From IMG/VR virus record IMGVR_UViG_3300044547_000096, positions 1 through 39,383 of that record: a stretch of 39,383 nt of DNA; one strand, 5' to 3'. Both the position numbers and the translations under genes were made by a program. The DNA comes from a virus. Each line of letters starts with the position of its first letter. The first letter of the stretch is position 1. This document shows positions 16,759-39,383 of the stretch, piece by piece. The notes below the pieces were generated by a model. It had not been told where the DNA came from. It did not search any database and was given only the letters and a program-made list of their open reading frames with translations.

Positions 16759-17072
16759 GCATAAAGGACGAGCCGTGGTTTAACGACCCGTTCGATTGGT
16801 ATGAACGAGAAGGATATCCAGAGATTGTAGGTATAGCCGTAACAGATAAGGTAGCACTTGATTTTCTTCAAGCGTTATACCAAATCTATAAACGACTAGA
16901 GCGCAATGATAGAACAAAAGCGATGGAAGATGCTAAGCAACTAGCAATACTGCTACTAGCTAGTGCATTTGATTACGCTGAAGAAGCAATAGATGAATTA
17001 ATTATACAAGAAGTAAACGCAGTAGATATAGATGCTGCATTCGCAGAGATGATAGAGGAACAGAATGACTAG
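16755..17072 (+). CDS. Hypothetical protein (105 aa)
   Basis: A 105-residue, mainly helical protein starting in an ATGA overlap at 16755. An earlier in-frame ATG at 16707 would add 16 Arg/His-rich residues inside the upstream gene and is rejected. The helices at residues about 30-95 are Ala/Leu/Ile-rich with many acidic residues (LAILLLASAFDYAEEAIDEL). No membrane segment or motif is recognised. It overlaps the DUF932 gene by eight bases. Confidence 0.55.
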   Translation: MSIKDEPWFNDPFDWYEREGYPEIVGIAVTDKVALDFLQALYQIYKRLERNDRTKAMEDAKQLAILLLASAFDYAEEAIDELIIQEVNAVDIDAAFAEMIEEQND

Positions 17073-18045
17073 ACGAGATCCGTATACAGTAATTGGTACG
17101 CATAGCGAGTACGAAGTTAACTCAGCACATGACCTAATGGTAAAGGCTGGACTTGACTGGAAGGTTACATTAGAAAATGTATTTATTAATGAGACTGATC
17201 CACTTGAAGTACCAGATAGATATGCAACAGTTAAGTGGACTAATACAGGGTGGACTGAAACAGACCCTACACCACTAGCAATAGTAGGTTCACGATACAA
17301 AGTATTACAAAATGATGAGATCTTCTCATGCCTTGACGACATCGTTAACAACAGCGATGCACGTTATGGTGCAGCAGGTGAACTCAAGGGTGGCAACGTA
17401 GTATGGGCAACCATTGAACTACCAGCTAACGTAACAGTTGGTGATGATCCACACAATGCATATGTAATTGCACGTACATCACACGATGGTAGTATGCCAT
17501 TCCAAATGACACCAGTTGTTAATCGATTAAGCTGTACTAATCAGATCAATGCAGCCATGATGAGTGGCAAAGCTAAGGGTATTTACTACCGTGTTAAGCA
17601 TAGCCCTAACAGTAGCATCAACCCAGATGATATCCGAAAAGCATTTAGAATTATGAACGAAGATGTTCAGAAGTATGCAACAGTATCATCATACCTACGT
17701 TCAATTGAATTCAGTAACGAAGAGTTCAAGAACTTTGTTAAGCGAGTGTACCCACTGCCTAGCAAGATTGAGTTCTCACCATATGAGATGCTCAGTGCAG
17801 GTGAACGTACATCTAAGACAAGAGTAGAACGTAACAGAGCCAGTGCATTGAACGTATGGATTGGTGAGACAGACACGCAGCACAACATTAAGAACACTAA
17901 GTTCGGTGCATTCCAAGCTATCGTGGAAGCAACCGATCACTTCAGTAAAGACTATAGCAAGCAAGCAGGCAAGATGATTCTCGGCACAGACATAGCCGTG
18001 AAGTCACGAGCACTACAACTATTAGGAGTAAGCAATGGGTCTTGA
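17065..18045 (+). CDS. DUF932 family phage/plasmid-like protein
   Basis: A 326-residue protein matching the DUF932 (phage/plasmid-like TIGR03299) pattern. The N-terminal half contains YATVKWTNTG, VGSRYKVLQNDEIF and a Gly-rich GGNVVWATIELP strand. The central VVNRLSCTNQ signature is followed by a long helical segment and a C-terminal part with NTKFGAFQAIVEATDH. This family is widespread in phages and plasmids, lies near replication or recombination genes and has no firmly established biochemical role. The length is normal for the family and no key segment appears missing. It overlaps its neighbours by 8 and 11 bases. Confidence 0.8.
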   Translation: MTRRDPYTVIGTHSEYEVNSAHDLMVKAGLDWKVTLENVFINETDPLEVPDRYATVKWTNTGWTETDPTPLAIVGSRYKVLQNDEIFSCLDDIVNNSDARYGAAGELKGGNVVWATIELPANVTVGDDPHNAYVIARTSHDGSMPFQMTPVVNRLSCTNQINAAMMSGKAKGIYYRVKHSPNSSINPDDIRKAFRIMNEDVQKYATVSSYLRSIEFSNEEFKNFVKRVYPLPSKIEFSPYEMLSAGERTSKTRVERNRASALNVWIGETDTQHNIKNTKFGAFQAIVEATDHFSKDYSKQAGKMILGTDIAVKSRALQLLGVSNGS

Positions 18046-25049: not shown

Positions 25050-25481
25050 TTAAGCCTCTGGTGTTGCTGGTTTCTTGGCATCGCCAATGATCTTAGCAGG
25101 ATCTAACCCACCGCCACGCTTCCAGCCTGGACCTGCCTGTAGTTCCATGTGAAGATGCGGACCTGTGACATTGCCTTCTTTTCCAACCTTACCGATAAAG
25201 TCTCCAGTCTTAAGGTTTTGTCCGACCTTGACCTTGTAAGAAGATAGGTGAGCAAATAGAAGATGTCCACCTTCAACTTTAAGTAGCACTGAGTACTGTC
25301 CAAAAGCAGCACCCCATACTTGACCAACCTTTACAACCTTGCCATCGCATGGAGCAACTACAACTGCACCTACTGGTGCTGCATAGTCCACTCCTTCATG
25401 CTTTCCGCTAGACCATCGCTTTCCAGCGACTCCGAAGGGTGTCGTGACCTTATACTTTGTATCTTTCATTGGTGAAGCCAT
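25050..25481 (-). CDS. Endolysin-type M23 (LytM) peptidase
   Basis: A 143-residue protein that is almost only a peptidase domain. H28-x3-D32 (HEGVD), H78 (FAHL) and H109-x-H111 (GPHLHMEL) are the zinc ligands and catalytic residues of M23 metalloendopeptidases, which cut peptidoglycan cross-links or stems. There is no signal peptide, so release must depend on a holin; three membrane or exported proteins are encoded next to it. It lacks a separate cell-wall-binding domain. It overlaps the upstream membrane protein gene by one base. Confidence 0.9.
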   Translation of the reverse strand: MASPMKDTKYKVTTPFGVAGKRWSSGKHEGVDYAAPVGAVVVAPCDGKVVKVGQVWGAAFGQYSVLLKVEGGHLLFAHLSSYKVKVGQNLKTGDFIGKVGKEGNVTGPHLHMELQAGPGWKRGGGLDPAKIIGDAKKPATPEA

Positions 25482-28752: not shown

Positions 28753-29934
28753 CTAAAACTTAATAATAAAGTTAATTACAGTGGATGGCTGAGTATTATT
28801 GTGAGCTTGACTTGAACCTCTATAATCAGTTGCATCTTGAGCAGCAAAATCTCCTACAGGTATTACATCATAAACATCAGAACCAACAGTACCAATGGTC
28901 TTGGTTGCTCTAGCTAATGCGTGATTATGCGAAGGCATTTGCGCTTCAGTAAGAGTTACTGTTTCATCATTAGATACCTTTGACCTATTAGTAGCATTAA
29001 AGGAACGTGCAGTTAAAGCATTATTATGATCAACAGTGGTACCAGTTCCAATACCCATAGGTACACGACCACGCAAGTCTGGAACACGGAAGTGAGTAGT
29101 ACCTGCTCCACCAGAACCATTGGTTAATGCACCATAATTAGTTCCAATTACATTAGCAAGAGTAGGATAGGAACTTACAAGTTTTTCTGTACCATCACAC
29201 AATAACCAGCCAGTAGGTGCAGTGTCAGTAACCCACATGTTTACAGCACCAACTGGAGTGTTATTAGTAAACTGTGTTTGAATTGCAGAAGTTACTCCAT
29301 CAAGATAACCAATTTCAGTAGAGGTAACTGTACCAATTGAAGTGGTAGATGGAAGAACTACTGTTCCAGTAAATGTTGGATCAGCACTAGGAGCTTTAGT
29401 ATTTAATTGTGTCTGAACAGCAGAGGTAACGCCATCAACATAATTAAGTTCTGTTGTAGTAAGTGTTGCTCCATCTAAAATATTTAGTTCTGTTGATGTA
29501 GCAGTAAGATTAACATTTTCATTAATTTTTGGTGTAGTTAAAGTTTTGTTAGTAAGAGTTTGTGCTTTAGCTGTACCAACTACGTTGCCTTCAGCAGACC
29601 CAATACCATGAACTAAGTCTGAATCATCAAGATGATCATGTACAAACTGTAAGTCAGAACCAACAATCATATGACGAACTGCGTTACCATTTGTATGTGG
29701 ATATGCAGTAGCACCAGTTTCAATAGCTCTTTGAATTCTAATTGTAGGTGCAGTTAGAGTGCCATCTGCAACTACAAGTACAGCTTCTTCACTTGCAGTA
29801 TCTGGACTAAGAACAAGAACATATGGTGGACTAGGTAAACCTGTAACATTATTAAGAGTAAGTTGTGTAGCGGTATTAGTTATATCACCACTTAATGTTT
29901 TAGGTTCTGCAATAGATGTGTAATTACGGGACAT
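28753..29934 (-). CDS. Tail fibre with phage tail collar domain (393 aa)
   Basis: A 393-residue protein. Residues 1-110 form an N-terminal beta domain with a metal-ion-like HDHLDDSDLVHG segment. Residues about 145-235 contain repeats of T-x-T-E-L-N-x-L-D-G-x-T and Y-V-D-G-V-T-S-A-x-Q-T-Q, the stem repeats common in phage fibres. Residues about 240-310 are a tail collar domain ([10 protein letters not shown] ... FRVPDLRGRVPMG). The C-terminus has HNHA and ends in INFIIKF. It is one of two collar-domain proteins; the other carries a collagen-like shaft. It probably binds the host surface. Confidence 0.8.
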   Translation of the reverse strand: MSRNYTSIAEPKTLSGDITNTATQLTLNNVTGLPSPPYVLVLSPDTASEEAVLVVADGTLTAPTIRIQRAIETGATAYPHTNGNAVRHMIVGSDLQFVHDHLDDSDLVHGIGSAEGNVVGTAKAQTLTNKTLTTPKINENVNLTATSTELNILDGATLTTTELNYVDGVTSAVQTQLNTKAPSADPTFTGTVVLPSTTSIGTVTSTEIGYLDGVTSAIQTQFTNNTPVGAVNMWVTDTAPTGWLLCDGTEKLVSSYPTLANVIGTNYGALTNGSGGAGTTHFRVPDLRGRVPMGIGTGTTVDHNNALTARSFNATNRSKVSNDETVTLTEAQMPSHNHALARATKTIGTVGSDVYDVIPVGDFAAQDATDYRGSSQAHNNTQPSTVINFIIKF

Positions 29935-29941
29935 GATTTAC

Positions 29942-30841
29942 CTATCGTGTGAAGTGGATTCTAGTTGGGTTACGATCAGTTAACTTTCGGCTTTCTTCAG
30001 CAAGCCTCTTGTCATATAGTGCAAGCAAATACTTAGCAGTATTAGTACCAGCACCATAAGAACGACCAGCAATTTGTGACTGTTGATCTGATTCAGCAGA
30101 GCCAAAGGTTAGACGACCTGGATCTACAAATGAAGCTAGTCTTGCTGCAGCACCAAGAACAATTACATCCTTAGAAGACACAGGTAAACCAGTAACGATT
30201 TCAAACTCATCATCATTAGTATCCATTACGGTTGGTGCGGATGTATAAAATATCTGTACAGTTCTTCCTGGTTCAACACCAGAGTAAAGACTAATACTGT
30301 TGCGAGAATTAAAAGCACTAGTGTTAGCCATAGAATCAACACGCCAACTACGAATAGGAAGCCATTCTTTAGATGGACCAGTAGTTTGAAAGGATACTCC
30401 AAGCACAGTTTCTGCTTCGTCAGGTAAAGCGTAAGTTGATTTAGCTGTTGAGTAAGAGAATGTATGGGTAGCAGTAGCATACAAGTCTGGATAAACTGCC
30501 TGAATCGTATCATTAATAGCTTCCTTAATGTCTACAGATGGGAAGGTAGGAGATACAATTACACGTGCACCGTTCTGATGTGTAGCAGCAGATGTGCCAT
30601 TGTACCCACGACCATAAGGCGGAATACTAAGTACGCCAGAGTTACGATCATATGAGTCTACATAAATTAATTCATCATCAATCTGAATAACACCAGTAGA
30701 AATGTTAGTAGCAGAAGCAACAGTAATACTAGTTGCAGTTGCATTAACTGCAGCAGTAAGGTGTGTTTGACGATCTTGACGCAGGGTAAAGCCTGCTAAC
30801 TTACGTGATACCTCATCAGTCATTTGACCAAACGTAGCCAT
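29942..30841 (-). CDS. Probable head-tail adaptor / tail-tubular protein
   Basis: A 299-residue protein. Residues about 30-95 hold a small beta module with the IxIDDELIYVDS pattern followed by GRGYNGTSAATHQNGA, a structural module frequent in phage virion proteins. After it, IKEAINDTIQAVYPDLY and YALPDEAETVLGV resemble the helical-plus-beta core of phage adaptor proteins that join portal to tail in podoviruses. It shares a TAATG overlap with the SLOG-NADAR gene upstream. The adaptor assignment is moderate and rests on the pattern and absence of other candidates. Confidence 0.55.
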   Translation of the reverse strand: MATFGQMTDEVSRKLAGFTLRQDRQTHLTAAVNATATSITVASATNISTGVIQIDDELIYVDSYDRNSGVLSIPPYGRGYNGTSAATHQNGARVIVSPTFPSVDIKEAINDTIQAVYPDLYATATHTFSYSTAKSTYALPDEAETVLGVSFQTTGPSKEWLPIRSWRVDSMANTSAFNSRNSISLYSGVEPGRTVQIFYTSAPTVMDTNDDEFEIVTGLPVSSKDVIVLGAAARLASFVDPGRLTFGSAESDQQSQIAGRSYGAGTNTAKYLLALYDKRLAEESRKLTDRNPTRIHFTR

Positions 30842-33435
30842 TAGTTACCTTCCATTAGTTCATCACGAATTTTCATAAGAAGCTTTCCAAGTTTATTTGA
30901 ACCCTTGCCATTAACTTGACCCCAGAAAGTATCTCCCCAGGTATTACCTTCAATTAATTCAACATCACCAGTGTCAATTAACTTCTTTTTTAGTTCTGGA
31001 TTTTGTTGGAACTTTGCGCGAAGTGCAGTTTCCATTACTTCTTCACGTATTTGAGTCCAGTTCTTGCGAAGCGTTACAGTCCTACCAATTTTCTTTGCTT
31101 CTCCTGCTGTCTTAGCAGCAAGAATTTTTGCACGTTGAGCTGAATCAGTAGTCTTCATTGCTTGGAAAAAATGTTCAACGGTTGGATAAGTTTCTTGACC
31201 AACTTTAAAAGAAGACTCACTCATGTTAGAAAGAAAAGCATTCTCTCCTCTAAAAAAATTAATTGGTTTTAATTCACTTGCAGCTGATTTAACAGGTTCG
31301 GTTGTTTTTGCTGCACCTTTTGTAAATTGTTGCAAGTATTCTTCAATAGCTTGACGACCAGCTGGATTTAAATCACGAGTACCAATACCAGCAAACTCAT
31401 CAAACTTAGGTGGCAAATCTGAATCTACAAACTTTTTACCATCCCACTTAAACCAAGACTTTTTAACTTGATCAAACACATAAACAGGTACTCCCTTATC
31501 TATACCCATTTGAGTAGCCCAACCAGTGCCACCGCTTACCTTGGTTCCATCAGGAAGAACTTTACCAACAGCAATAACTGCTTCTGAATCTTTAACTTGA
31601 TAGTAATTGCGACGGAATAAATTTTGATAGTCTGCATTAATTGGTCTACCTAAACCTTCTGCAGCTTTTTCAATAAATTTATCTGCTGCTTTAAGTTGTT
31701 CTTCAGTTAACTCATTACGTGTTTCCATCGTTGGTCTAGTACCAGAAACTCTGTGACCCTTAAAGCTGTGACCAATTGTTTTAATACCCATAGAGTCAGC
31801 AACTTCTGCCCATGCAGTATCAGCACCAGTAGCCATGCCAGAGTGTACGGTAATATCTGAAGCATTAGCTGCTGGTTCTAGCTTAGTTGCAGGTACACGT
31901 TTTTCTAGCTTTTTAATTTGCTCGCCTTTAATTCTGGCTGATTCAACAATTAATTTACGCTGTTGTTGAACTGAAAGTTCTTTGCCATTTGGCATTATTT
32001 TTGGTTCTTTAATGTCTGTGTATTCAACACGTAAATCATCAATTTCTTTTTGAAGTTTATCTATTTCTTTTTTAGCACCAGCAAGTTCAGGTGTTGCCTT
32101 AGGTTGTTCTGGTTTAATTGGAGACCTAGCAATTGCTTCACGTGCTTGCTTAGTTTCTTGATTAAAGATTTCTTCCTGAGTGCGCTTTAAGTCAGAACGT
32201 AATCCAGAAAGAATATCTGGATCTGTTTCATTATCTATCATGCGTGTAATAGATTTTTCATCAGACTTTAATTCAGTTAACGTAGAACGTGCAGGACTGT
32301 CTGGTGCTTTGCCAGGCTTACCTGCTGGTCGAACTGCTTCGTAGTTACGTGGACTAGCCCAGTCGCGTGTTGTTGCTCCAGTTTTTTTATCTGTCTTAAA
32401 AAATGGAATATAGCGTTCAACATAATCTATAGCTTTTGGATCAGTTGGATCATCAATATATCTTTGAAGTCTAACTGATGTTCTATCAAGCTTTGCTACT
32501 TCAGATTTAATTCTGTCAACTATGTTTGTTGATACGCCATTCTTTTTAAGATCTTCTATGTCTTTATAGATTTCTCTACGTATCTCTGGATCTTTTTCTT
32601 TTTGAGCAAGACGGCGTAAAGTTCCAACAACTTTACCTACTTGATCTCTTCCAACTTCTTCACCAGAAAGAGTAAGCATTTCTTCTAAGATATTTTTATC
32701 TGAAGTAATATCATCTAATTCAGCTTGAACAGATGAACGCTTAACTGGTTCGCGTGGTGTCTTAGTGTTAAGTTCATCAACTTGTTGTGCAGTTTTAATT
32801 TCTTCTGGAGTACCACGATTTAAGTCACGTTTAACTTTAGCGTCAGCTGCTCGCTCACTGTTGGGTACAGCTTTACCTGACTTGTCAACAGATGGTATAT
32901 CATTTTTATTTGTAAGAATACTAATCTCTTCAGGATCAAGATCACGTTCTAAAAACTTAGCAGGACCTTGCGATGCCTGATACTCAGCAAGATCATCTGC
33001 TGTTGCGCCAGGACCAAGGGTTATGTTTGGCTCAAGAGTTCGTGCATCTTCAGCAGTAGTGACAGCAGGGTTGTATTCAACTGGCTTACCACGTCTAGCT
33101 AACTCAGCTTCAATTTCTAATTTAGTTTTACCAGCTGCTTTAGCTACAACAGGCAATGAATCAGTAGCAGCATTTACAACTATGGTTTCTGCTAATACAG
33201 TTCTTAAAGCTTTAGTTCCTAGTTGAGCTATCTTTGCAGGTGGAATCAAAAATGTGGCTGCAGTTATACCTACGTTAAGGGCATCGCCCCAAGTGCCTTC
33301 GCCATCCATAATTTTTTTAATTGACTTAGCACCAAATAAAAAGTCAGCAACTTCCCATGCCACTGAATCATTATCTTTTTCTACAATGTTAGTACCACGG
33401 TACTGATCTATTGGTGGTGCTATTGGGTTAGCCAT
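30841..33435 (-). CDS. Virion-block fusion protein with SLOG-like and NADAR domains (864 aa)
   Basis: An 864-residue multidomain protein. Residues 1-100 contain a hydrophobic segment (about 49-97). Residues 100-520 are charged, helical and linker-rich. Residues about 527-690 fit a SLOG-type Rossmann fold: HSGMATGADTAW (531-542), AVIAVG (619-624), SGGTGWATQMG (634-644) and VPVYVFDQ. Residues about 722-862 are a NADAR (YbiA) domain with FFRGENAFLSNM, E754-x3-Q758 in YPTVEHFFQAMK, W793, and E829 plus D835-x2-W838 in IEGNTWGDTFWG. NADAR enzymes hydrolyse N-glycosidic bonds of ADP-ribose-like substrates and some remove ADP-ribose from guanine; SLOG domains bind NAD-derived nucleotides. Encoded among tail genes, it may be packaged and injected. 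The enzyme roles are inferred. Confidence 0.8.
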   Translation of the reverse strand: MANPIAPPIDQYRGTNIVEKDNDSVAWEVADFLFGAKSIKKIMDGEGTWGDALNVGITAATFLIPPAKIAQLGTKALRTVLAETIVVNAATDSLPVVAKAAGKTKLEIEAELARRGKPVEYNPAVTTAEDARTLEPNITLGPGATADDLAEYQASQGPAKFLERDLDPEEISILTNKNDIPSVDKSGKAVPNSERAADAKVKRDLNRGTPEEIKTAQQVDELNTKTPREPVKRSSVQAELDDITSDKNILEEMLTLSGEEVGRDQVGKVVGTLRRLAQKEKDPEIRREIYKDIEDLKKNGVSTNIVDRIKSEVAKLDRTSVRLQRYIDDPTDPKAIDYVERYIPFFKTDKKTGATTRDWASPRNYEAVRPAGKPGKAPDSPARSTLTELKSDEKSITRMIDNETDPDILSGLRSDLKRTQEEIFNQETKQAREAIARSPIKPEQPKATPELAGAKKEIDKLQKEIDDLRVEYTDIKEPKIMPNGKELSVQQQRKLIVESARIKGEQIKKLEKRVPATKLEPAANASDITVHSGMATGADTAWAEVADSMGIKTIGHSFKGHRVSGTRPTMETRNELTEEQLKAADKFIEKAAEGLGRPINADYQNLFRRNYYQVKDSEAVIAVGKVLPDGTKVSGGTGWATQMGIDKGVPVYVFDQVKKSWFKWDGKKFVDSDLPPKFDEFAGIGTRDLNPAGRQAIEEYLQQFTKGAAKTTEPVKSAASELKPINFFRGENAFLSNMSESSFKVGQETYPTVEHFFQAMKTTDSAQRAKILAAKTAGEAKKIGRTVTLRKNWTQIREEVMETALRAKFQQNPELKKKLIDTGDVELIEGNTWGDTFWGQVNGKGSNKLGKLLMKIRDELMEGN

Positions 33436-33594
33436 TTATTTTTTCTTTCGAGTAACTGCCATGTTGTCAATTAAATTTGGATAAGGTCGTCCAGCTTTTT
33501 TAGCACGAGCTTTAGCTGCAGCCTTTTGAGCTGGTGTTAATGCTTTAGATTTCTTTTTAGGATTTGGTATATCCCATACTTTTTTCTTTACCAT
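33436..33594 (-). CDS. Very basic small protein (52 aa)
   Basis: A 52-residue Lys/Ala-rich protein with the conserved-looking core LTPAQKAAAKARAKKAGRPY followed by PNLIDNMA and a KKK end. Small proteins with this AKKAGRPYPNL pattern recur in tailed phages of Actinobacteria. It could coat DNA or bind the acidic virion interior. Its start overlaps the upstream gene by seven bases (ATGGTAA), and the next gene starts immediately after its stop. Confidence 0.65.
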   Translation of the reverse strand: MVKKKVWDIPNPKKKSKALTPAQKAAAKARAKKAGRPYPNLIDNMAVTRKKK

Positions 33595-33854
33595 TTAACT
33601 TTGTCCGCCCAATATGCTGCGCTCATTTTGCCTTTAGCGATATTTTTGGCGTGACGGGCTTTAAACGAAGCCTGTCTTGCGGTAGGTTGTCTATCACCCG
33701 TCACACCTTGTTGACCAAAGCGGATAGTCTTAACCTGTGTACCTTCTTTAGCCACAACAACGTGTGACTTTGTTGGATGTCCAGGTGTACGCTTCGGCTT
33801 GTTGTAGCCAGAAACACCTGCACGTGCTAGTCGTGGGTCCTTCTTGACTGCCAT
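33588..33854 (-). CDS. Conserved basic phage protein (88 aa)
   Basis: An 88-residue basic protein with features of a family widespread in aquatic phages: N-terminal KKDPRLARAGVSGYNKPKRT, PTKSHVVVAKEG, and a C-terminal SFKARHAKNIAKGKMSAAYW followed by ADKVKW. I recall this pattern from phage genomes of unrelated hosts, where the function is unknown; a DNA-associated virion role is plausible. It overlaps the downstream 52-residue gene. Confidence 0.7.
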   Translation of the reverse strand: MAVKKDPRLARAGVSGYNKPKRTPGHPTKSHVVVAKEGTQVKTIRFGQQGVTGDRQPTARQASFKARHAKNIAKGKMSAAYWADKVKW

Positions 33855-33856
33855 AA

Positions 33857-34213
33857 TTAACGACCTCTTGGAGCCTTTGGCTTTGCTGTTTTTGACATGG
33901 GTTTCTTTTCCATAGGTCCTAAATTCTTACCGCCACCAGCACGTTGCGCCTGACGGGCTCTTGCAACCTCTGATGTTTTAGCACCAAACTTTTCTCCTCT
34001 AGCGTTAGTAAAAGTTTTTGACTGAGACTTTCCTTCAGCCTTCATTCCCTTTACTTCAGCCTTTGAAACAATGTTTTTGTAATACTTGTTTACACGTACA
34101 TTTTCACGTGCGTTTTCATTTCCAACCTGTACAGCAGTTTTGCTGCCACGTGACTTTGTTGTTGCCATCTTTGCTACTGGCTTCTTAGCACCAGTCATTT
34201 TCTTCATTGCCAT
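33857..34213 (-). CDS. Lysine-rich protein (118 aa)
   Basis: A 118-residue protein with more than 25 Lys residues and repeated MKK, AKK and KPK stretches, both termini being low-complexity. The centre (VSKAEVKGMKAEGKSQSKT) is helical and the C-terminus is PKAPRGR. It resembles histone-tail-like or DNA-condensing proteins. It is the third of three consecutive basic genes and may help neutralise packaged DNA; inference only. Confidence 0.55.
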   Translation of the reverse strand: MAMKKMTGAKKPVAKMATTKSRGSKTAVQVGNENARENVRVNKYYKNIVSKAEVKGMKAEGKSQSKTFTNARGEKFGAKTSEVARARQAQRAGGGKNLGPMEKKPMSKTAKPKAPRGR

Positions 34214-34214
34214 G

Positions 34215-34367
34215 TTACTTACCCTTCTTGGTTGACTTAGGCATAGCAGGAACTGCTGGTACCTTCGGCATGTTGTAATTTACTTTGTCAATACCTTTGT
34301 ATGATCCTGGCATTGTAGGAACTTCGTGATTATAGTTAACGTGATTACATCCACATGAAGCACACAT
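34215..34367 (-). CDS. MCASCGC miniprotein (50 aa)
   Basis: A 50-residue protein with C2-x2-C5-x-C7 and H9, H14, followed by a Pro/Met/Lys-rich tail. AAAGGAG lies six bases before the ATG, an excellent ribosome binding site. The N-terminal Cys/His cluster could bind one zinc ion. It starts 11 bases after the stop of the 88-residue Cys protein and ends one base before the lysine-rich gene, showing it is part of the operon. Confidence 0.6.
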   Translation of the reverse strand: MCASCGCNHVNYNHEVPTMPGSYKGIDKVNYNMPKVPAVPAMPKSTKKGK

Positions 34368-34378
34368 GGTTATCTCCT

Positions 34379-34645
34379 TTATAAAGCAGAACCGAATGCG
34401 TGTCCTGTTTTGTTACTTACATCTACTGCCTTCCGAATCTGTGCAGTAGAAGTTCCGTCTGGTTGTATACCCTGAGCACGAGCGTCACGGTAAGCTTTAA
34501 GTTCGTTGTTCCATTTTTTGTTGGTCCAACCATTGTTAACTAGCTCGCCATTAGCGTCACCAGTTGACATCTGTATGTTTGATGCTCGTAAGCAATCACC
34601 CCAAGACTCGTGATCTTGAGTAGGACAGCCAGTTCTACAAGCCAT
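34379..34645 (-). CDS. MACRTGCPTQ family protein, long form (88 aa)
   Basis: An 88-residue protein beginning MACRTGCPTQDHESWGDCLR, with C3, C7 and C18, then a mainly helical hydrophilic region ending GHAFGSAL. Its first 10 residues are identical to the 31-residue peptide encoded at 35723-35818, on the other side of the glycosyltransferase gene, and the DxxC segment that follows is similar. An AAAGGA site precedes the start, which overlaps the glycosyltransferase end by 11 bases. The Cys motif may bind metal or form disulphides. Function unknown. Confidence 0.6.
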   Translation of the reverse strand: MACRTGCPTQDHESWGDCLRASNIQMSTGDANGELVNNGWTNKKWNNELKAYRDARAQGIQPDGTSTAQIRKAVDVSNKTGHAFGSAL

Positions 34646-35705
34646 TCTTGTAATCCTTTACAGTCTGAGTCATAATAAACTCATAGTTTTTTATTAATCT
34701 TTCATCAGTAGGATTAAGATCAACTGCTTTACGTGCGTACTTTTTAGCAGAACCCTTCTTGTCTAGGTTCCAACATGCAATAGAAAGCAAGTCATACATA
34801 CGCCAAGGCATTGACTGATCAGCAATGTAATGCTTATTGCCTTGAGATTTAATACTGTTAACAACCATTGCTGCTTGATAGCAGTGATTCCACATCTTAC
34901 GTTCATAATAATAAAACGCTAAGGGAAACCAAGCTTCTAAATCATTTGGTGCTTCTTCAACACCACGTTGTAGCCAGTGCAAACCTTCTAGGTCATTACC
35001 TAAGTTGCAGTATGCTTGACCAATACCACGCCAAGTCTGAGCACGTTCAATGTTCCAACCAGATACATGTTCTAGTTTTTTACCAACTGTTATTAGTTCT
35101 TCCCACATACCCTTGAAGTAATACTCACGAGCTAAGTAAACAATCATTCGATGATCTGTAGGATCTTCTTGATGTCCTAGTTCTAGTAGTGGTAGATAGC
35201 TACTACGTGGCTTACTGTTATCTGGACTATGAGTAATCAGTGACTCTATTACAATAAGTTTATCTAAACTTTTATCAATAGGTTCTATAACTTCATGGCA
35301 CGGATACTTCCATCTATAGCCATGTCTAGAATGAATACGAGTGTTACTAGCCCAGACGTTGCCCGTGTCACACATAACCCAAGCTCTATCAGTATCAGGC
35401 TGCCAAGCCTGTCGTATCTTGTCAAAGAAATCTGGATCGGGAATCTCGTCCATATCTAAAACAACACATACATCTACATCAGATGGTACTAAATCTAGTG
35501 CCATATTTCGTGCGATATCAAACCTAAAGTCTGTTAGCGTGGCTCTGTGGGCTTCTATGGGGTACTTCTGAAGCAAGTCATAGGTGTTATCTTCTGACCC
35601 AGTATCTAAAACTACCCTAACATCTGCACCCTTGGTAGCACCTACCCATTGTTTAATATGTTTAGATTCATTCTTAGCTATAGCATAAGCTGCAATTTTA
35701 ACCAT
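34635..35705 (-). CDS. GT2-like glycosyltransferase with TPR region
   Basis: A 356-residue protein. Residues 1-110 have the GT-A fold start of family 2 glycosyltransferases: AIAKNESKHI (about 8-17), VLDTGSEDNT (about 32-41) and VCVVLDMDEIPD (about 79-90), where DMDE is the metal-binding DxD. Residues about 195-345 carry tetratricopeptide-like helical repeats (AREYYFKGMWEEL, WRGIGQAYCNLGN, SAKKYARKAVDLNPTDER). This architecture occurs in phage and bacterial enzymes that glycosylate surface molecules or proteins. Within the structural block it might modify tail fibres or capsid, or host surface sugars. The sugar donor is unknown. It shows no truncation. Confidence 0.8.
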   Translation of the reverse strand: MVKIAAYAIAKNESKHIKQWVGATKGADVRVVLDTGSEDNTYDLLQKYPIEAHRATLTDFRFDIARNMALDLVPSDVDVCVVLDMDEIPDPDFFDKIRQAWQPDTDRAWVMCDTGNVWASNTRIHSRHGYRWKYPCHEVIEPIDKSLDKLIVIESLITHSPDNSKPRSSYLPLLELGHQEDPTDHRMIVYLAREYYFKGMWEELITVGKKLEHVSGWNIERAQTWRGIGQAYCNLGNDLEGLHWLQRGVEEAPNDLEAWFPLAFYYYERKMWNHCYQAAMVVNSIKSQGNKHYIADQSMPWRMYDLLSIACWNLDKKGSAKKYARKAVDLNPTDERLIKNYEFIMTQTVKDYKNGL

Positions 35706-35722
35706 GCTATAATCCTAGCATA

Positions 35723-35818
35723 CTATGGTCGTAGGCTAGACTTATTAATAGCTACACCCTTACAGCAGTCTGCGTATGATTCACAGTTCTGAGTTGGACA
35801 TCCTGTACGACAAGCCAT
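35723..35818 (-). CDS. MACRTGCPTQ family peptide, short form (31 aa)
   Basis: A 31-residue peptide with C3, C7, C12, C18 and C19. Its first ten residues equal those of the 88-residue protein at 34379-34645, followed by NCESYADCCK in place of DHESWGDCLR. It starts in a TAATG overlap with the preceding small gene. An AAAGGA site and the paralogy support translation. It may be a duplicated and shortened copy, or the ancestral minimal form. Confidence 0.6.
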   Translation of the reverse strand: MACRTGCPTQNCESYADCCKGVAINKSSLRP

Positions 35819-35958
35819 TATGGAAGTTCCTTTGCTCCAAAGGCATTAACATTAATAACCTTTGTTCCATTAGATAAACTAACCATTACATTAAGATTTA
35901 AAGTTACTTCAATCTCTTCACTGTCTAGTGGATTAATTACTGTTACTGTTACTTCCAT
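35818..35958 (-). CDS. Small beta-rich protein (46 aa)
   Basis: 46 residues with alternating Val/Thr/Ile strands (MEVTVTVINPLDSEEIEVTL, NVMVSLSNGTKVINV) and an end NAFGAKELP. It is preceded by AAGGA after the collar-fibre stop and overlaps the MACRTGC peptide start by one base. A small beta-sandwich or fibre-associated chaperone is possible. No family recognised. Confidence 0.55.
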   Translation of the reverse strand: MEVTVTVINPLDSEEIEVTLNLNVMVSLSNGTKVINVNAFGAKELP

Positions 35959-35967
35959 TTTAATTCC

Positions 35968-37418
<1,451 letters not shown>

Positions 37419-37419
<1 letters not shown>

Positions 37420-37748
37420 TACTGCGTCACCTCTGCTGTTACAATAAAGCGACCCTCCAAGATTCGTGTAACTTCATTACCAGAAGAAGTAAGTTCAATG
37501 TCATATACCCAACGACCAGCAGGTACATCAGACATGGTTGCAGCAGAAACTGTTACAGATACATGACCAACAGATGTCATAGTTGCAGAAGTAATGTTAA
37601 GTAAAGTTGCAGTTGCGGAAGCAGAACGACGAACTTGCATAGCAAAAGTGTAGCCAGTTAAATTCCAAGGAGTACCATCAGTCTCAACACGAAAGTTTAG
37701 ATTAAAGGTAGCACCTTGCTCAGCTACAATATTGTACTTACCACTCAT
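37419..37748 (-). CDS. Small beta protein preceding the fibre (BppU N-domain-like)
   Basis: A 109-residue beta-rich protein: [57 protein letters not shown] and [15 protein letters not shown] follow the strand order of small baseplate- or fibre-attachment domains like the N-domain of BppU-type proteins. Such genes often sit directly upstream of fibre genes and may link the fibre to the tail. It overlaps the fibre gene start by one base and the upstream membrane gene by four. Confidence 0.6.
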
Positions 37749-37975
37749 AGTTCATCCTTAAGATGTAATGTAATGTGCTCATCTAAACGCTTTTCAATTC
37801 GATCTACTGTGCGAGCAATGTCTGGAAGGCTGCGACCACCATTGGCAGTTGGTTGAATAGGATAGGTCTGGTCTTTAATATAATTTTTAATTGGAGTTAC
37901 TATAAATAACTTACCCAGTACGGTCAGGATACCTATACTTAACGACACAACTGTCAATGATTCTAGAAGTGTCAT
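37745..37975 (-). CDS. DUF2746-like small membrane protein (76 aa)
   Basis: A 76-residue protein with one N-terminal membrane helix (residues about 5-26) and a conserved-looking YPIQPTANGGRSLPDIARTV segment (about 38-57). A charged amphipathic helix (RIEKRLDEHITLHL) follows. The pattern matches a short actinophage family (DUF2746-like), sometimes proposed as holin-like. It is far from the endolysin, so a virion or membrane-contact role is as likely. It overlaps neighbours by four bases on each side. Confidence 0.6.
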   Translation of the reverse strand: MTLLESLTVVSLSIGILTVLGKLFIVTPIKNYIKDQTYPIQPTANGGRSLPDIARTVDRIEKRLDEHITLHLKDEL

Positions 37976-38223
37976 AGTTCAAAGACCTCGTAGCCAACCG
38001 ACTCAAGAGCATCTTTCTCTTCTTCAGTAACCACATACTCATGTCCTCCAAGATAAACTAGATCAGCATCAATAAGATCATCCTGTGAAACAAATCTATC
38101 TTCATAGAATTCACCATCAACACGGTAAACAGTTACACCTTGCTTGCGTGTGTAACGAGCAAATAGCCAGTTACCACCCATAGGTCCTTCGTTAACCACT
38201 GGTGGTACAAATAGGTAAGACAT
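37972..38223 (-). CDS. Small connector-region protein (83 aa)
   Basis: An 83-residue protein directly after the capsid gene, with AAAGGG upstream of the ATG. Residues 1-45 have strands with aromatic residues (NWLFARYTRKQGVTVYRVDG). The second half, with the conserved-looking FVSQDDLIDADLVYLGGHEY and an acidic end, resembles small proteins encoded after capsid genes in related phages. Function unknown; a head-completion role is possible by position. Confidence 0.55.
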   Translation of the reverse strand: MSYLFVPPVVNEGPMGGNWLFARYTRKQGVTVYRVDGEFYEDRFVSQDDLIDADLVYLGGHEYVVTEEEKDALESVGYEVFEL

Positions 38224-38240
38224 TTAATCCCTTTCAGTAC

Positions 38241-38279
38241 CTAGCAACACCCCCACCTTGTGGGTGGGGATGAAGCTAG
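38241..38279 (-). terminator. Hairpin after the capsid gene
   Basis: The outer CTAGC/GCTAG pairs (38241-38245 and 38275-38279) enclose a 7-bp stem, CCCCACC (38251-38257) with GGTGGGG (38263-38269). It follows the capsid stop by seven bases in the leftward direction and has no U-run. It would partly attenuate transcription or protect the capsid mRNA 3' end, giving more capsid than downstream tail products. Confidence 0.55.
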
Positions 38280-38286
38280 CCACTAA

Positions 38287-39297
38287 CTAAGCAATGCTAG
38301 AAGCAGACTCGATACGGTACAACGCTTCGTTACGGTAGATAGCGTGTCCTAGAACACCGTACCAACCGATTGGACGCTGACGCATCAAACGATCTACGAC
38401 TGGACCAACAACCACGTGTGGTTCTTCGGCAACAGCCTCAGCAAGTGCTTGCTGTCCACATAGGAACGTACGGTAAACAGGAATGCTTGAAGCACCGCTG
38501 TTTGTCTTACGTAGACGTGGAGATTCGATGAAGTATGCACCTTCAAACTGACCAATTTCGCCAGCCCAGATAGCATCGTTGCTCTGGTACTCATGTGGGT
38601 TACGCCATGAAGCAGCACCAGTTTCAGCACGAAGATCGTGAGATACTTCTGGGTGAATACCACACCAGTATAGTGATCCCTTACGACCATTAGCCTTGTT
38701 GGAACGAAGCTTTGCAACAGCGTAACGGATGTCAGCAGCAGATAGTGTGTCATCTGAAGTGATACCTGAAGTTGTTGTTGCAGTGGTTGTTCCACCAGTT
38801 GCGTAAAGTACGTTAGTACCTGTTAGCAATGCATCCTGTGCTAGTTCATCGATAGAATCAGCCATGTTGAATGCAATGATGTTAGCAACAGCAGGATCTA
38901 CGTCAGCTAGTGACAATAGACCAAGCTTCTTGCTAACTAGGGTAGCGTTACCATACTCGTTTAGAGTGATGGTTACTACATCTGGAGTAGACAGAGCAAC
39001 TGCTTCTGGATCTACTTCTTCAGATAGAACGCTCTTAGCGACTGCCATGTCGTTGTAGATCTGTAGAGCTACAGACGAACCTGGCATAGCCTGACGAGCA
39101 GGCTTCTTGTCTGCTACTGAACGTAGCAATGGGGTGGAGCGTAGTTCAAATTCAACAAGACGATCGTACGCCTTCTGAACTAGACCAGCACCGTTTGATG
39201 GTGTGAATGTTCCTACGTTGGAGTTGCTTGAGTAAGCACCACCACCGAGACCGCCATTAGTTGCAGCGGTACCACCCGATAAGCCTGTTACAGCCAT
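38287..39297 (-). CDS. Major capsid protein, N4-gp56 family
   Basis: A 336-residue HK97-fold capsid protein of the N4-gp56 type. The N-terminus is Gly/Ser/Thr-rich. Next come VQKAYDRLVEFELRSTPLLR and DKKPARQAMPGSSVALQIYN, typical of the N-arm and E-loop. The central AQDALLTGTNVLYA and SAADIRYAVAKLRSNK lead to the family hallmark GIHPEVSHDLR. The C-terminal domain carries GWYGVLGHAIYRNEALYRIE. It is transcribed directly after scaffold and preceded by AAGGA. The length is normal for the family. A hairpin follows the stop. Confidence 0.9.
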   Translation of the reverse strand: MAVTGLSGGTAATNGGLGGGAYSSNSNVGTFTPSNGAGLVQKAYDRLVEFELRSTPLLRSVADKKPARQAMPGSSVALQIYNDMAVAKSVLSEEVDPEAVALSTPDVVTITLNEYGNATLVSKKLGLLSLADVDPAVANIIAFNMADSIDELAQDALLTGTNVLYATGGTTTATTTSGITSDDTLSAADIRYAVAKLRSNKANGRKGSLYWCGIHPEVSHDLRAETGAASWRNPHEYQSNDAIWAGEIGQFEGAYFIESPRLRKTNSGASSIPVYRTFLCGQQALAEAVAEEPHVVVGPVVDRLMRQRPIGWYGVLGHAIYRNEALYRIESASSIA

Positions 39298-39383
39298 GAT
39301 TATTCCTTAGGGGTTGTGTGATTGATTACGAATCTGCGCCGTAAATCATTTCCATTAATTCTTCGGCACTCTGAGCATTGTTA
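39200..39383. repeat. Terminal duplication of the contig, right copy
   Basis: The counterpart of bases 1-184 at an offset of 39199, with two mismatches (39202 and 39256). It contains the capsid start, the 28-base gap and the end of the scaffold gene. Joining the two copies restores complete scaffold and capsid genes in the correct order. Confidence 0.93.
39326..39383 (-). CDS. Scaffolding protein, C-terminal fragment (second copy)
   Basis: The last 18 codons and stop of the scaffold gene, whose complete copy lies at 127-594, cut by the contig end. The sequence is identical to the corresponding part of the full copy. It is not an independent gene. Confidence 0.9.
   Translation of the reverse strand, partial: NNAQSAEELMEMIYGADS

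Follow-up and report, generated by a model that had tools for sequence, protein, structure and literature searches.

Architecture of a phage protein encoded beside the adaptor gene

We examined a 39,383-nucleotide stretch of viral DNA (positions 1 to 39,383 of IMG/VR record IMGVR_UViG_3300044547_000096; hereafter, the window), which belongs to a phage from an environmental sample, and focused on a minus-strand gene (P0001; 30841..33435) that starts with ATG and encodes, among virion genes, a long multidomain protein of 864 amino acids (aa) with several effector domains. The plus-strand reading of 30841-33435 was ruled out, as stops are abundant in it. From its N terminus, the protein consists of a 110-residue module (residues 1-110; 33106..33435), a variable charged linker (residues 111-520; 31876..33105), a SLOG (Rossmannoid) domain (residues 521-708; 31312..31875), and a YbiA-subfamily NADAR domain (residues 721-864; 30844..31275), all on the minus strand. 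Comparison with related phages shows, at the level of sequence, that the conserved N-terminal module and the fast-changing linker carry exchangeable C-terminal domains within the structural block, and we refer to the gene as a cargo-platform gene and to proteins sharing its N-terminal module as platform proteins.

A sequence-only reading of the window had placed a fusion of SLOG-like and NADAR domains at the C terminus of a protein encoded among tail and adaptor genes. Profile matches and fold alignments bear out the fusion, and the neighborhood is as described, with genes for an SU10-type adaptor and a collar protein downstream and collagen-collar fiber and capsid genes upstream. The NADAR domain matched Pfam PF08719 over residues 731-860 (E=5.9e-31; 108.4 bits against a cutoff of 35.1) and the profile phrog_1017 (E=2.8e-46), and its best sequence match in the PDB was Escherichia coli YbiA (2b3w; E=1.8e-25). 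An AlphaFold2 model of residues 512-864, for which the input was 18 sequences from the window and its loci, had a mean predicted local distance difference test score (pLDDT) of 87.9 and a predicted template modeling score (pTM) of 0.55; given this pLDDT against this pTM, we consider the two domains to be well modeled but not their mutual placement. The NADAR part of the model aligned with 2b3w at Z 19.7 (144 residues; root mean square deviation [rmsd] 1.8) and with 8bau, a P. nicotianae NADAR with ADP-ribose, at Z 18.2.

The sequence match of the SLOG domain was weaker (PHROG_768, DprA-like; E=4.7e-11, residues 521-654). Pfam DprA scored 14.3 bits on it, below the cutoff of 29.6, and across this clade the Pfam SLOG families DprA, YAcAr, cpYpsA, and LDcluster4 all match below cutoff. 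The fold match was clear, with VIA-align placing the domain on 3imk at Z 13.8 (134 residues; rmsd 2.7) and the next rows at Z 5.9 or less; 3imk presumably represents the circularly permuted YpsA (cpYpsA)-type SLOG family. Given the E value of the NADAR match and the recovery of both folds, a chance match was ruled out. The motifs HSGMATGADT (residue 531) and GGTGWATQMG (residue 635) lie where the sequence-only reading had put them, and the HSG-A-G-D residues and a G-T pair are invariant in the 11 SLOG members that we aligned; we take these to be the glycine-rich nucleotide loop and the second loop of SLOG domains. That reading had also pointed to the SLOG sensors of Thoeris-type and related defense; the structure nearest to this SLOG is 3imk, and identity as a ThsA-type Thoeris sensor does not follow from the match. 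Nonsynonymous (dN) and synonymous (dS) divergence of the SLOG domain was 0.176 and 0.509 against locus L041 (dN/dS ~0.35) and 0.429 and 0.927 against L031 (~0.46).

Within the NADAR domain, all six residues that had been named as characteristic (E754, Q758, W793, E829, D835, and W838) were found at their positions, and K761, R785, and R797 are likewise present. By sequence alignment, done partly by hand, E754, K761, R785, W793, R797, E829, D835, and W838 are the equivalents of residues of 8bau that contact ADP-ribose or are proposed to be catalytic (PMC11543638), with Q758 lying outside this correspondence. In the same paper, Glu at the position of E125 marks the YbiA subfamily and Asp the BC4488 subfamily; since E829 occupies this position, we assign the window NADAR to the YbiA subfamily. 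It thus resembles 2b3w and 8bau in fold, catalytic residues, and the subfamily Glu, and differs from them in being fused to SLOG on a virion-locus platform and in not keeping equivalents of Y84 and D86, which contact adenine in 8bau. The fold and catalytic residues, as judged from the alignment and the model, are intact, and ADP-ribosyl hydrolase activity is predicted. Active-site residues are kept in all four of the other full-length platform NADARs that we aligned, save for R785K in L032, and nonsynonymous divergence was low relative to synonymous change against both L031 (dN 0.081, dS 0.277; dN/dS ~0.29) and L032 (dN 0.114, dS 0.432; ~0.26).

Membership in a DarT1-type toxin-antitoxin pair was ruled out, as residue 829 is Glu instead of Asp and no ADP-ribosyltransferase (ART) was found alongside, either among 18 window proteins searched with Pfam or in the 88-aa upstream neighbor, for which the search used PHROGs only.

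Cargo differs among close relatives at a single locus

We surveyed IMG/VR for related loci using as an anchor the SU10-type adaptor gene that lies directly downstream of the platform gene (29942..30841, minus strand; Pfam E=2.2e-6). With near-duplicate contigs left unmerged, this yielded 52 loci, of which 45 had at least 1.4 kb upstream of the adaptor and 7 were too short to judge. A search with the N-terminal alignment found 23 loci with the module, and a SLOG scan added L103. After duplicates were merged (e.g., L069/L031, L005/L041, and L040/L038) and truncated copies dropped (L027, L030, L085, and L086), 20 distinct full-length platform proteins, including that of the window, were available for comparison, and the adaptor follows the platform in each of their loci.

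Counting both domain orders and the lack of any recognized cargo, we found nine cargo states among these 20 proteins. SLOG followed by NADAR occurs in two (the window and L031), NADAR alone in two (L026 and L032), and SLOG alone in four (L034, L041, L064, and L072). DUF4326 precedes SLOG in one (L070), follows it in two (L073 and L103), stands alone in one (L071), and lies between SLOG and NADAR in one (L095); DUF3626 occurs in one (L094), and six have no recognized cargo (L028, L029, L033, L037, L038, and L050). At least one of the NAD/ADP-ribose-linked families SLOG, NADAR, DUF4326, and DUF3626 is therefore present in 14 of the 20. The DUF3626 domain, which we take to be ART-like, is the sole cargo of that kind that we saw; it lies at the C terminus of the L094 platform (L094:6902-9610; E=1.1e-9), and the adaptor there starts 176 bp downstream. 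SLOG, NADAR, and DUF4326 have all been tied to NAD/ADP-ribose chemistry (PMC9503650).

These cargo families keep to the platform gene in the records that we searched. The 33 virus records, which include many fragments, comprise 12 with the platform and 21 without it; SLOG, NADAR, and DUF4326 were each found in 3, with all nine matches falling within the platform open reading frame (ORF) and none in the 21 platform-less records.

The exchange is visible between phages that are otherwise very similar. L001 matches the window at 94-95.5% DNA identity in the flanks, and 31304-31870, the SLOG domain, is alone missing, in frame. The L028 adaptor is 98% identical to that of the window and its flanking DNA 80.6-92% identical, with no DNA match across 30862-33428; cargo thus differs between phages with adaptors at least 98% identical. 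In a tree of 44 adaptors, from which cut adaptors, unjudged rows, and some duplicates were left out, the window, L026, L028, L029, L031, L032, L033, and L064 form one group that includes four cargo states (support 89/91), and the 25 platform-less rows cluster with weak support (84/40). This exchange at one position suggests that the gene is a slot whose occupants disarm bacterial immunity and are probably borne by the particle.

The same SLOG clade occurs in giant proteins of other phages

Scanning with the SLOG alignment, we confirmed 185 stretches and kept the best 80 loci for analysis. Of these 80, 53 have SLOG within an ORF that is 400 aa or longer, and 11 of the 53 are platform loci; the SLOG ORF of L166 is cut by the locus end, and that of L159 is long only with TAG read as an amino acid. 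ORFs of at least 1,200 aa numbered 34 and formed 19 groups, one of them a platform, although the number of groups is possibly too high, some ORFs being cut.

Seven contigs (L116, L118, L120, L121, L123, L124, and L126) represent sister phages of the window, with identities to it, for genes contained in the retrieved locus, of 53-54% for the large terminase subunit, 55-59% for the portal, and 62-64% for the major capsid protein. The window encodes, between its portal and capsid genes, a giant protein of 1,744 aa without SLOG (3936..9170, minus strand). The homologous protein of the sister phages, of ~1955 aa, matches it over residues ~46-959 at 22-23% identity and from 1009 onward at 30-31%, and a SLOG domain sits between the two homologous pieces, where the window protein has ~50 residues. 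We base this placement on the two tblastn pieces that flank the SLOG (22-31% identity); aligning the giant proteins with MAFFT did not yield a clean boundary for the insertion. The platform module was found in none of the seven sister contigs, only four of which extend to the adaptor. The SLOG domain thus appears to have relocated to the giant portal-capsid-interval protein of sister phages, an arrangement that appears to be new. Two of these sister phages also have a short minus-strand frame matching DUF4326 near the terminase gene (L121:265-564; L126:48-329).

Other carriers of the same clade, at 36-43% identity, are considerably larger. In the Klebsiella phage Pylas (NC_049444), an N4-like phage, SLOG forms residues 972-1151 of a 3,819-aa protein annotated as the virion RNA polymerase. 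N4-type virion RNA polymerases are packaged and injected. In the crAss-like phage cr130_1, a 5,801-aa protein (L098:13777-31182) has SLOG at 5019-5200 followed by a NADAR-like stretch at 5268-5414, the same order as in the window, and in cr113_1, also crAss-like, SLOG lies near the end of a 4,328-aa protein. The cr130_1 protein was also the best fold match to the window C terminus in BFVD. Unlike these carriers of 3,819 to 5,801 aa, the window has a smaller dedicated gene, and where its NADAR has the catalytic Glu, that of cr130_1 has His. The NADAR-like stretch of cr130_1 scored 32.2 bits against the Pfam cutoff of 35.1 and has no match to R797, D835, or W838; His at the catalytic Glu position has been noted for phage NADARs (PMC11543638).

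Five cargo proteins were found by mass spectrometry in crAss001 virions (PMC10172136). PHROGs searches of both halves of the cr130_1 protein recovered SLOG- and NADAR-type families only and no RNA polymerase, and they do not establish orthology to the crAss001 cargo. Pfam gave nothing in four of seven giant SLOG carriers and only sub-cutoff matches in the other three.

Three other arrangements came from the same scan. L125 encodes, near a tail-protein gene, a 2,281-aa protein (L125:8390-15232) that combines NADAR-like, SLOG, and DUF4326-like domains (both Pfam scores below cutoff) and that does not have the platform module, making it a second protein in which ADP-ribose cargo of all three kinds is united. 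In L113, SLOG is joined in a 3,021-aa protein (L113:7733-16795) by a 2OG-Fe(II) oxygenase domain, slightly below the Pfam cutoff, which we take to be AlkB-like. L137, L138, L139, and L141 share a 475-aa ORF in which SLOG occupies the extreme C terminus, after ~300 residues of other sequence.

The N-terminal module, the linker, and the adaptor junction

The N-terminal module is common to all of the platform proteins that we found and has a low-confidence, all-helical prediction. None of the Pfam models, MuF included, matched it above cutoff in the platform proteins scanned. Against the other window genes it gave no second match better than E=4.9, in annotated phages a single match that is not credible (E=9), and in bacterial genomes 97 pattern matches, none of which was confirmed. 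The linker is highly charged (K, E, D, and R make up ~37% of residues 115-515) and gave identities of 23% and 31% in the two pairwise comparisons made.

The platform gene is closely joined to the adaptor gene. The platform stop and the adaptor start share one base (TAATG), and GGAAGG within the last platform codons (30848..30853, minus strand) is the likely adaptor ribosome-binding site. The one-base overlap is found in 18 of the 20 platform genes, the others having a gap of three bases (L064) or 176 bp (L094), and an AAGG element lies just 5' of the adaptor start in all 19 junctions inspected, those of the platform genes other than L103. A scan of 29500-39383 for promoters and terminators was uninformative, with 13 promoter-like matches against 20.6 expected and 12 terminator-like matches against 7.1.

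Relation to described polyvalent proteins

Packaged NADAR and related proteins, including SLOG/NADAR/DUF4326 fusions, were proposed to act against NAD-based immunity in 2022 by Iyer, Burroughs, Anantharaman, and Aravind (PMC9503650), who found NADAR in 0.3% of small phages. The platform proteins resemble the polyvalent effectors of that paper in being multidomain and encoded at virion loci, in combining SLOG, NADAR, Macro, or DUF4326 domains, and in their predicted packaging and early action on ADP-ribose signals. They differ in that close relatives share one small N-terminal module but exchange the cargo behind it; neither a module of this kind, nor a locus beside the adaptor, nor a move of SLOG from one virion-locus carrier to another is described in the available portions of the paper. 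The MuF-effector fusions described there also join a structural head domain to exchangeable C-terminal enzymes, but the platform module has no MuF match above cutoff and its gene adjoins the adaptor rather than the portal. A literature search at the level of titles and the beginnings of abstracts found no account of a swappable adaptor-side platform. The sharing, among small phages, of one N-terminal platform whose ADP-ribose cargo is interchangeable and, in the records searched, confined to that locus therefore appears to be new.

Possible roles of the platform protein

We give roughly even chances to a complete chain in which the gene encodes a modular platform for cargo that is probably packaged into the particle and injected, with its enzymes clearing ADP-ribose signals or adducts at an early stage of infection. 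The module and linker would bring the protein into the virion, as suggested by the location of the gene, the way in which the domains are fused, and the parallel carriers; the protein would then enter the cell together with the DNA, and its C-terminal enzymes, judging from fold and residues, would act at once on ADP-ribose derivatives. NADAR may cleave N-glycosidic ADP-ribose links, in guanine-ADP-ribose (ADPr) or a soluble derivative, SLOG may bind a signal of the ADP-ribose or cyclic ADP-ribose type or cleave it, and cargo turnover would track the NAD-based defenses of the hosts. A more specific version, to which we give somewhat less weight, holds that the 110-residue module is a dedicated tag for virion loading and ejection and that the gene is an exchange slot for ADP-ribose enzymes, akin to the swapping of polymorphic toxin tips by bacteria, with the same cargo also moving to the giant portal-capsid-interval protein and the repertoire serving as a readout of host NAD-based defenses.

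The substrate is one point at which the sequence-only reading needs qualifying. It had envisaged a polyvalent counterdefense protein that might repair DarT-type damage at entry; the shared late-locus module with its swapped effectors and the parallel SLOG carriers agree with the former, but the DarT branch is mixed, as YbiA and a T4-type phage NADAR hydrolyze guanosine-ADPr in vitro yet did not rescue cells from DarT1 (PMC11125620). Given this result and the assignment of the window NADAR to the YbiA subfamily through E829, we consider action on other ADP-ribose substrates more probable than repair of DarT1-type damage. A further member of the YbiA family serves as antitoxin to another ART, YarT (PMC11125620), NADARs also reverse guanosine-ADPr on RNA (PMC11833690), and the phage protein RyDEP, which is related to a ryanodine-receptor domain and not to NADAR or SLOG, enzymatically destroys Thoeris signals (PMC13232231). 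In light of these precedents and the DarT1 result, the likely substrate, whether instead of DarT1-modified DNA or in addition to it, is an ADP-ribose signal or adduct.

Several observations, along with the failure to rescue from DarT1, weigh against a packaged platform for ADP-ribose enzymes. The platform gene is dispensable, given that its N-terminal module is present in 19 and absent from 26 of the 45 judged loci and that 6 of the 20 platforms have no recognized cargo, although these six may hold domains outside Pfam's knowledge. SLOG needs no virion carrier, since 25 of the best 80 relatives are short free-standing proteins, and we infer the presence of the sister-phage giant proteins in virions from gene order. 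The NADAR-like domains of cr130_1 and L125 fall below cutoff, have His at the position of E829, and are missing other active-site residues, so the parallel with giant proteins is firm for SLOG and looser for NADAR. The model of the N-terminal module is weak (pLDDT 65.7), and a BFVD search with it returned no known fold (0 matches at E<=0.001), a null that, given the weak model, does not show a new fold. Finally, late expression fits a nonpackaged role, too.

Such a role is the strongest of the alternatives, although we think it unlikely: the protein would be made with the structural proteins and act in the same infected cell, protecting new DNA or damping late NAD-based abortive responses, with the module tethering it to heads, tails, or membrane and no injection taking place. 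Its position in the structural block and its start-stop overlap with the adaptor gene are in keeping with this, as is the commonness of free-standing SLOG and NADAR proteins in phages, but a cytosolic enzyme would have no need of the long variable N-terminal half, and the same SLOG also occurs within a protein annotated as a virion RNA polymerase and within giant proteins of the portal-capsid interval. The platforms without recognized cargo, which keep module and linker, could instead point to a structural or ejection component of the virion in which the work falls mainly to these parts, the C-terminal domains serving just to bind nucleotide ligands for stability or regulation. We consider this improbable, as the gene is absent from so many loci that it cannot be essential, and its cargo keeps catalytic residues and is under purifying selection.

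Two further explanations concern what the cargo does. It is quite improbable, in our view, that the protein has a metabolic housekeeping role without any part in defense, with NADAR clearing reactive riboflavin-pathway intermediates and SLOG acting on cellular nucleotides, even though the best PDB match is E. coli YbiA, for which a role in the riboflavin pathway has been reported (PMC11543638). The rapid turnover of cargo, its combinations with DUF4326 and DUF3626, and its placement in the structural block are unlike housekeeping. We give very little credence to an effector against the host or competing phages, in which NAD-consuming or signal-making cargo (DUF3626, SLOG) would do the damage and NADAR would limit self-damage; the L094 platform, with its presumed ART-like domain, is what speaks for it. 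A possible ART occurs in only 1 of the 20 platforms, and the other cargo families are processors or sensors according to PMC9503650.

If the preferred reading of a packaged, modular platform is true, the module would provide a candidate signal, short and portable, by which enzymes could be loaded into podovirus-type virions, and these phages would form a natural series differing, around one locus, mainly in the ADP-ribose enzyme carried. The action of packaged NADAR, SLOG, and DUF4326 on NAD-derived immune signals at entry, a prediction so far mostly of comparative genomics, would become directly testable, and the substrates of SLOG and DUF4326, left as predictions in the available text of PMC9503650, could be revealed.

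Host and other genes of the window

The host of this podovirus-like phage is likely actinobacterial (Actinomycetota). The annotated-phage records nearest by adaptor number 31, of which 29 belong to Streptomyces phages and 2 to the unannotated ct2KA10. An Actinomycetota metagenome bin includes a 5.8-kb contig with a 67%-identical capsid gene, although a phage contig in a host bin is weak evidence, and more distant capsid genes lie on two Streptomyces contigs.

The nearest upstream neighbor of the platform gene is an 88-aa gene (phrog_7595; 33588..33854, minus strand), and several platform-less phages (e.g., L036, L048, and L065) have a similar ORF of 88 aa directly upstream of their adaptor gene. 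Upstream of the platform gene, small genes are followed by a glycosyltransferase-tetratricopeptide repeat (TPR) protein, the collagen-collar fiber, and the capsid gene; on the same strand, the low-coordinate end is occupied by the terminase, the portal, the 1,744-aa protein, and others. The protein with glycosyltransferase family 2 and TPR repeats thus lies in the structural block (34635-35705; phrog_13126, E=3.6e-78). The tail fiber, with collagen repeats and a collar domain (35968-37419), is fast changing, and L001, ~88% identical to the window in the neighboring flanks, has only scattered repeat matches across it. Elsewhere in the window, a DUF932 protein is encoded on the plus strand in the replication-gene half (17065-18045; E=7.1e-37), and an M23 peptidase (25050-25481; E=1.4e-23) is probably a lysis enzyme.

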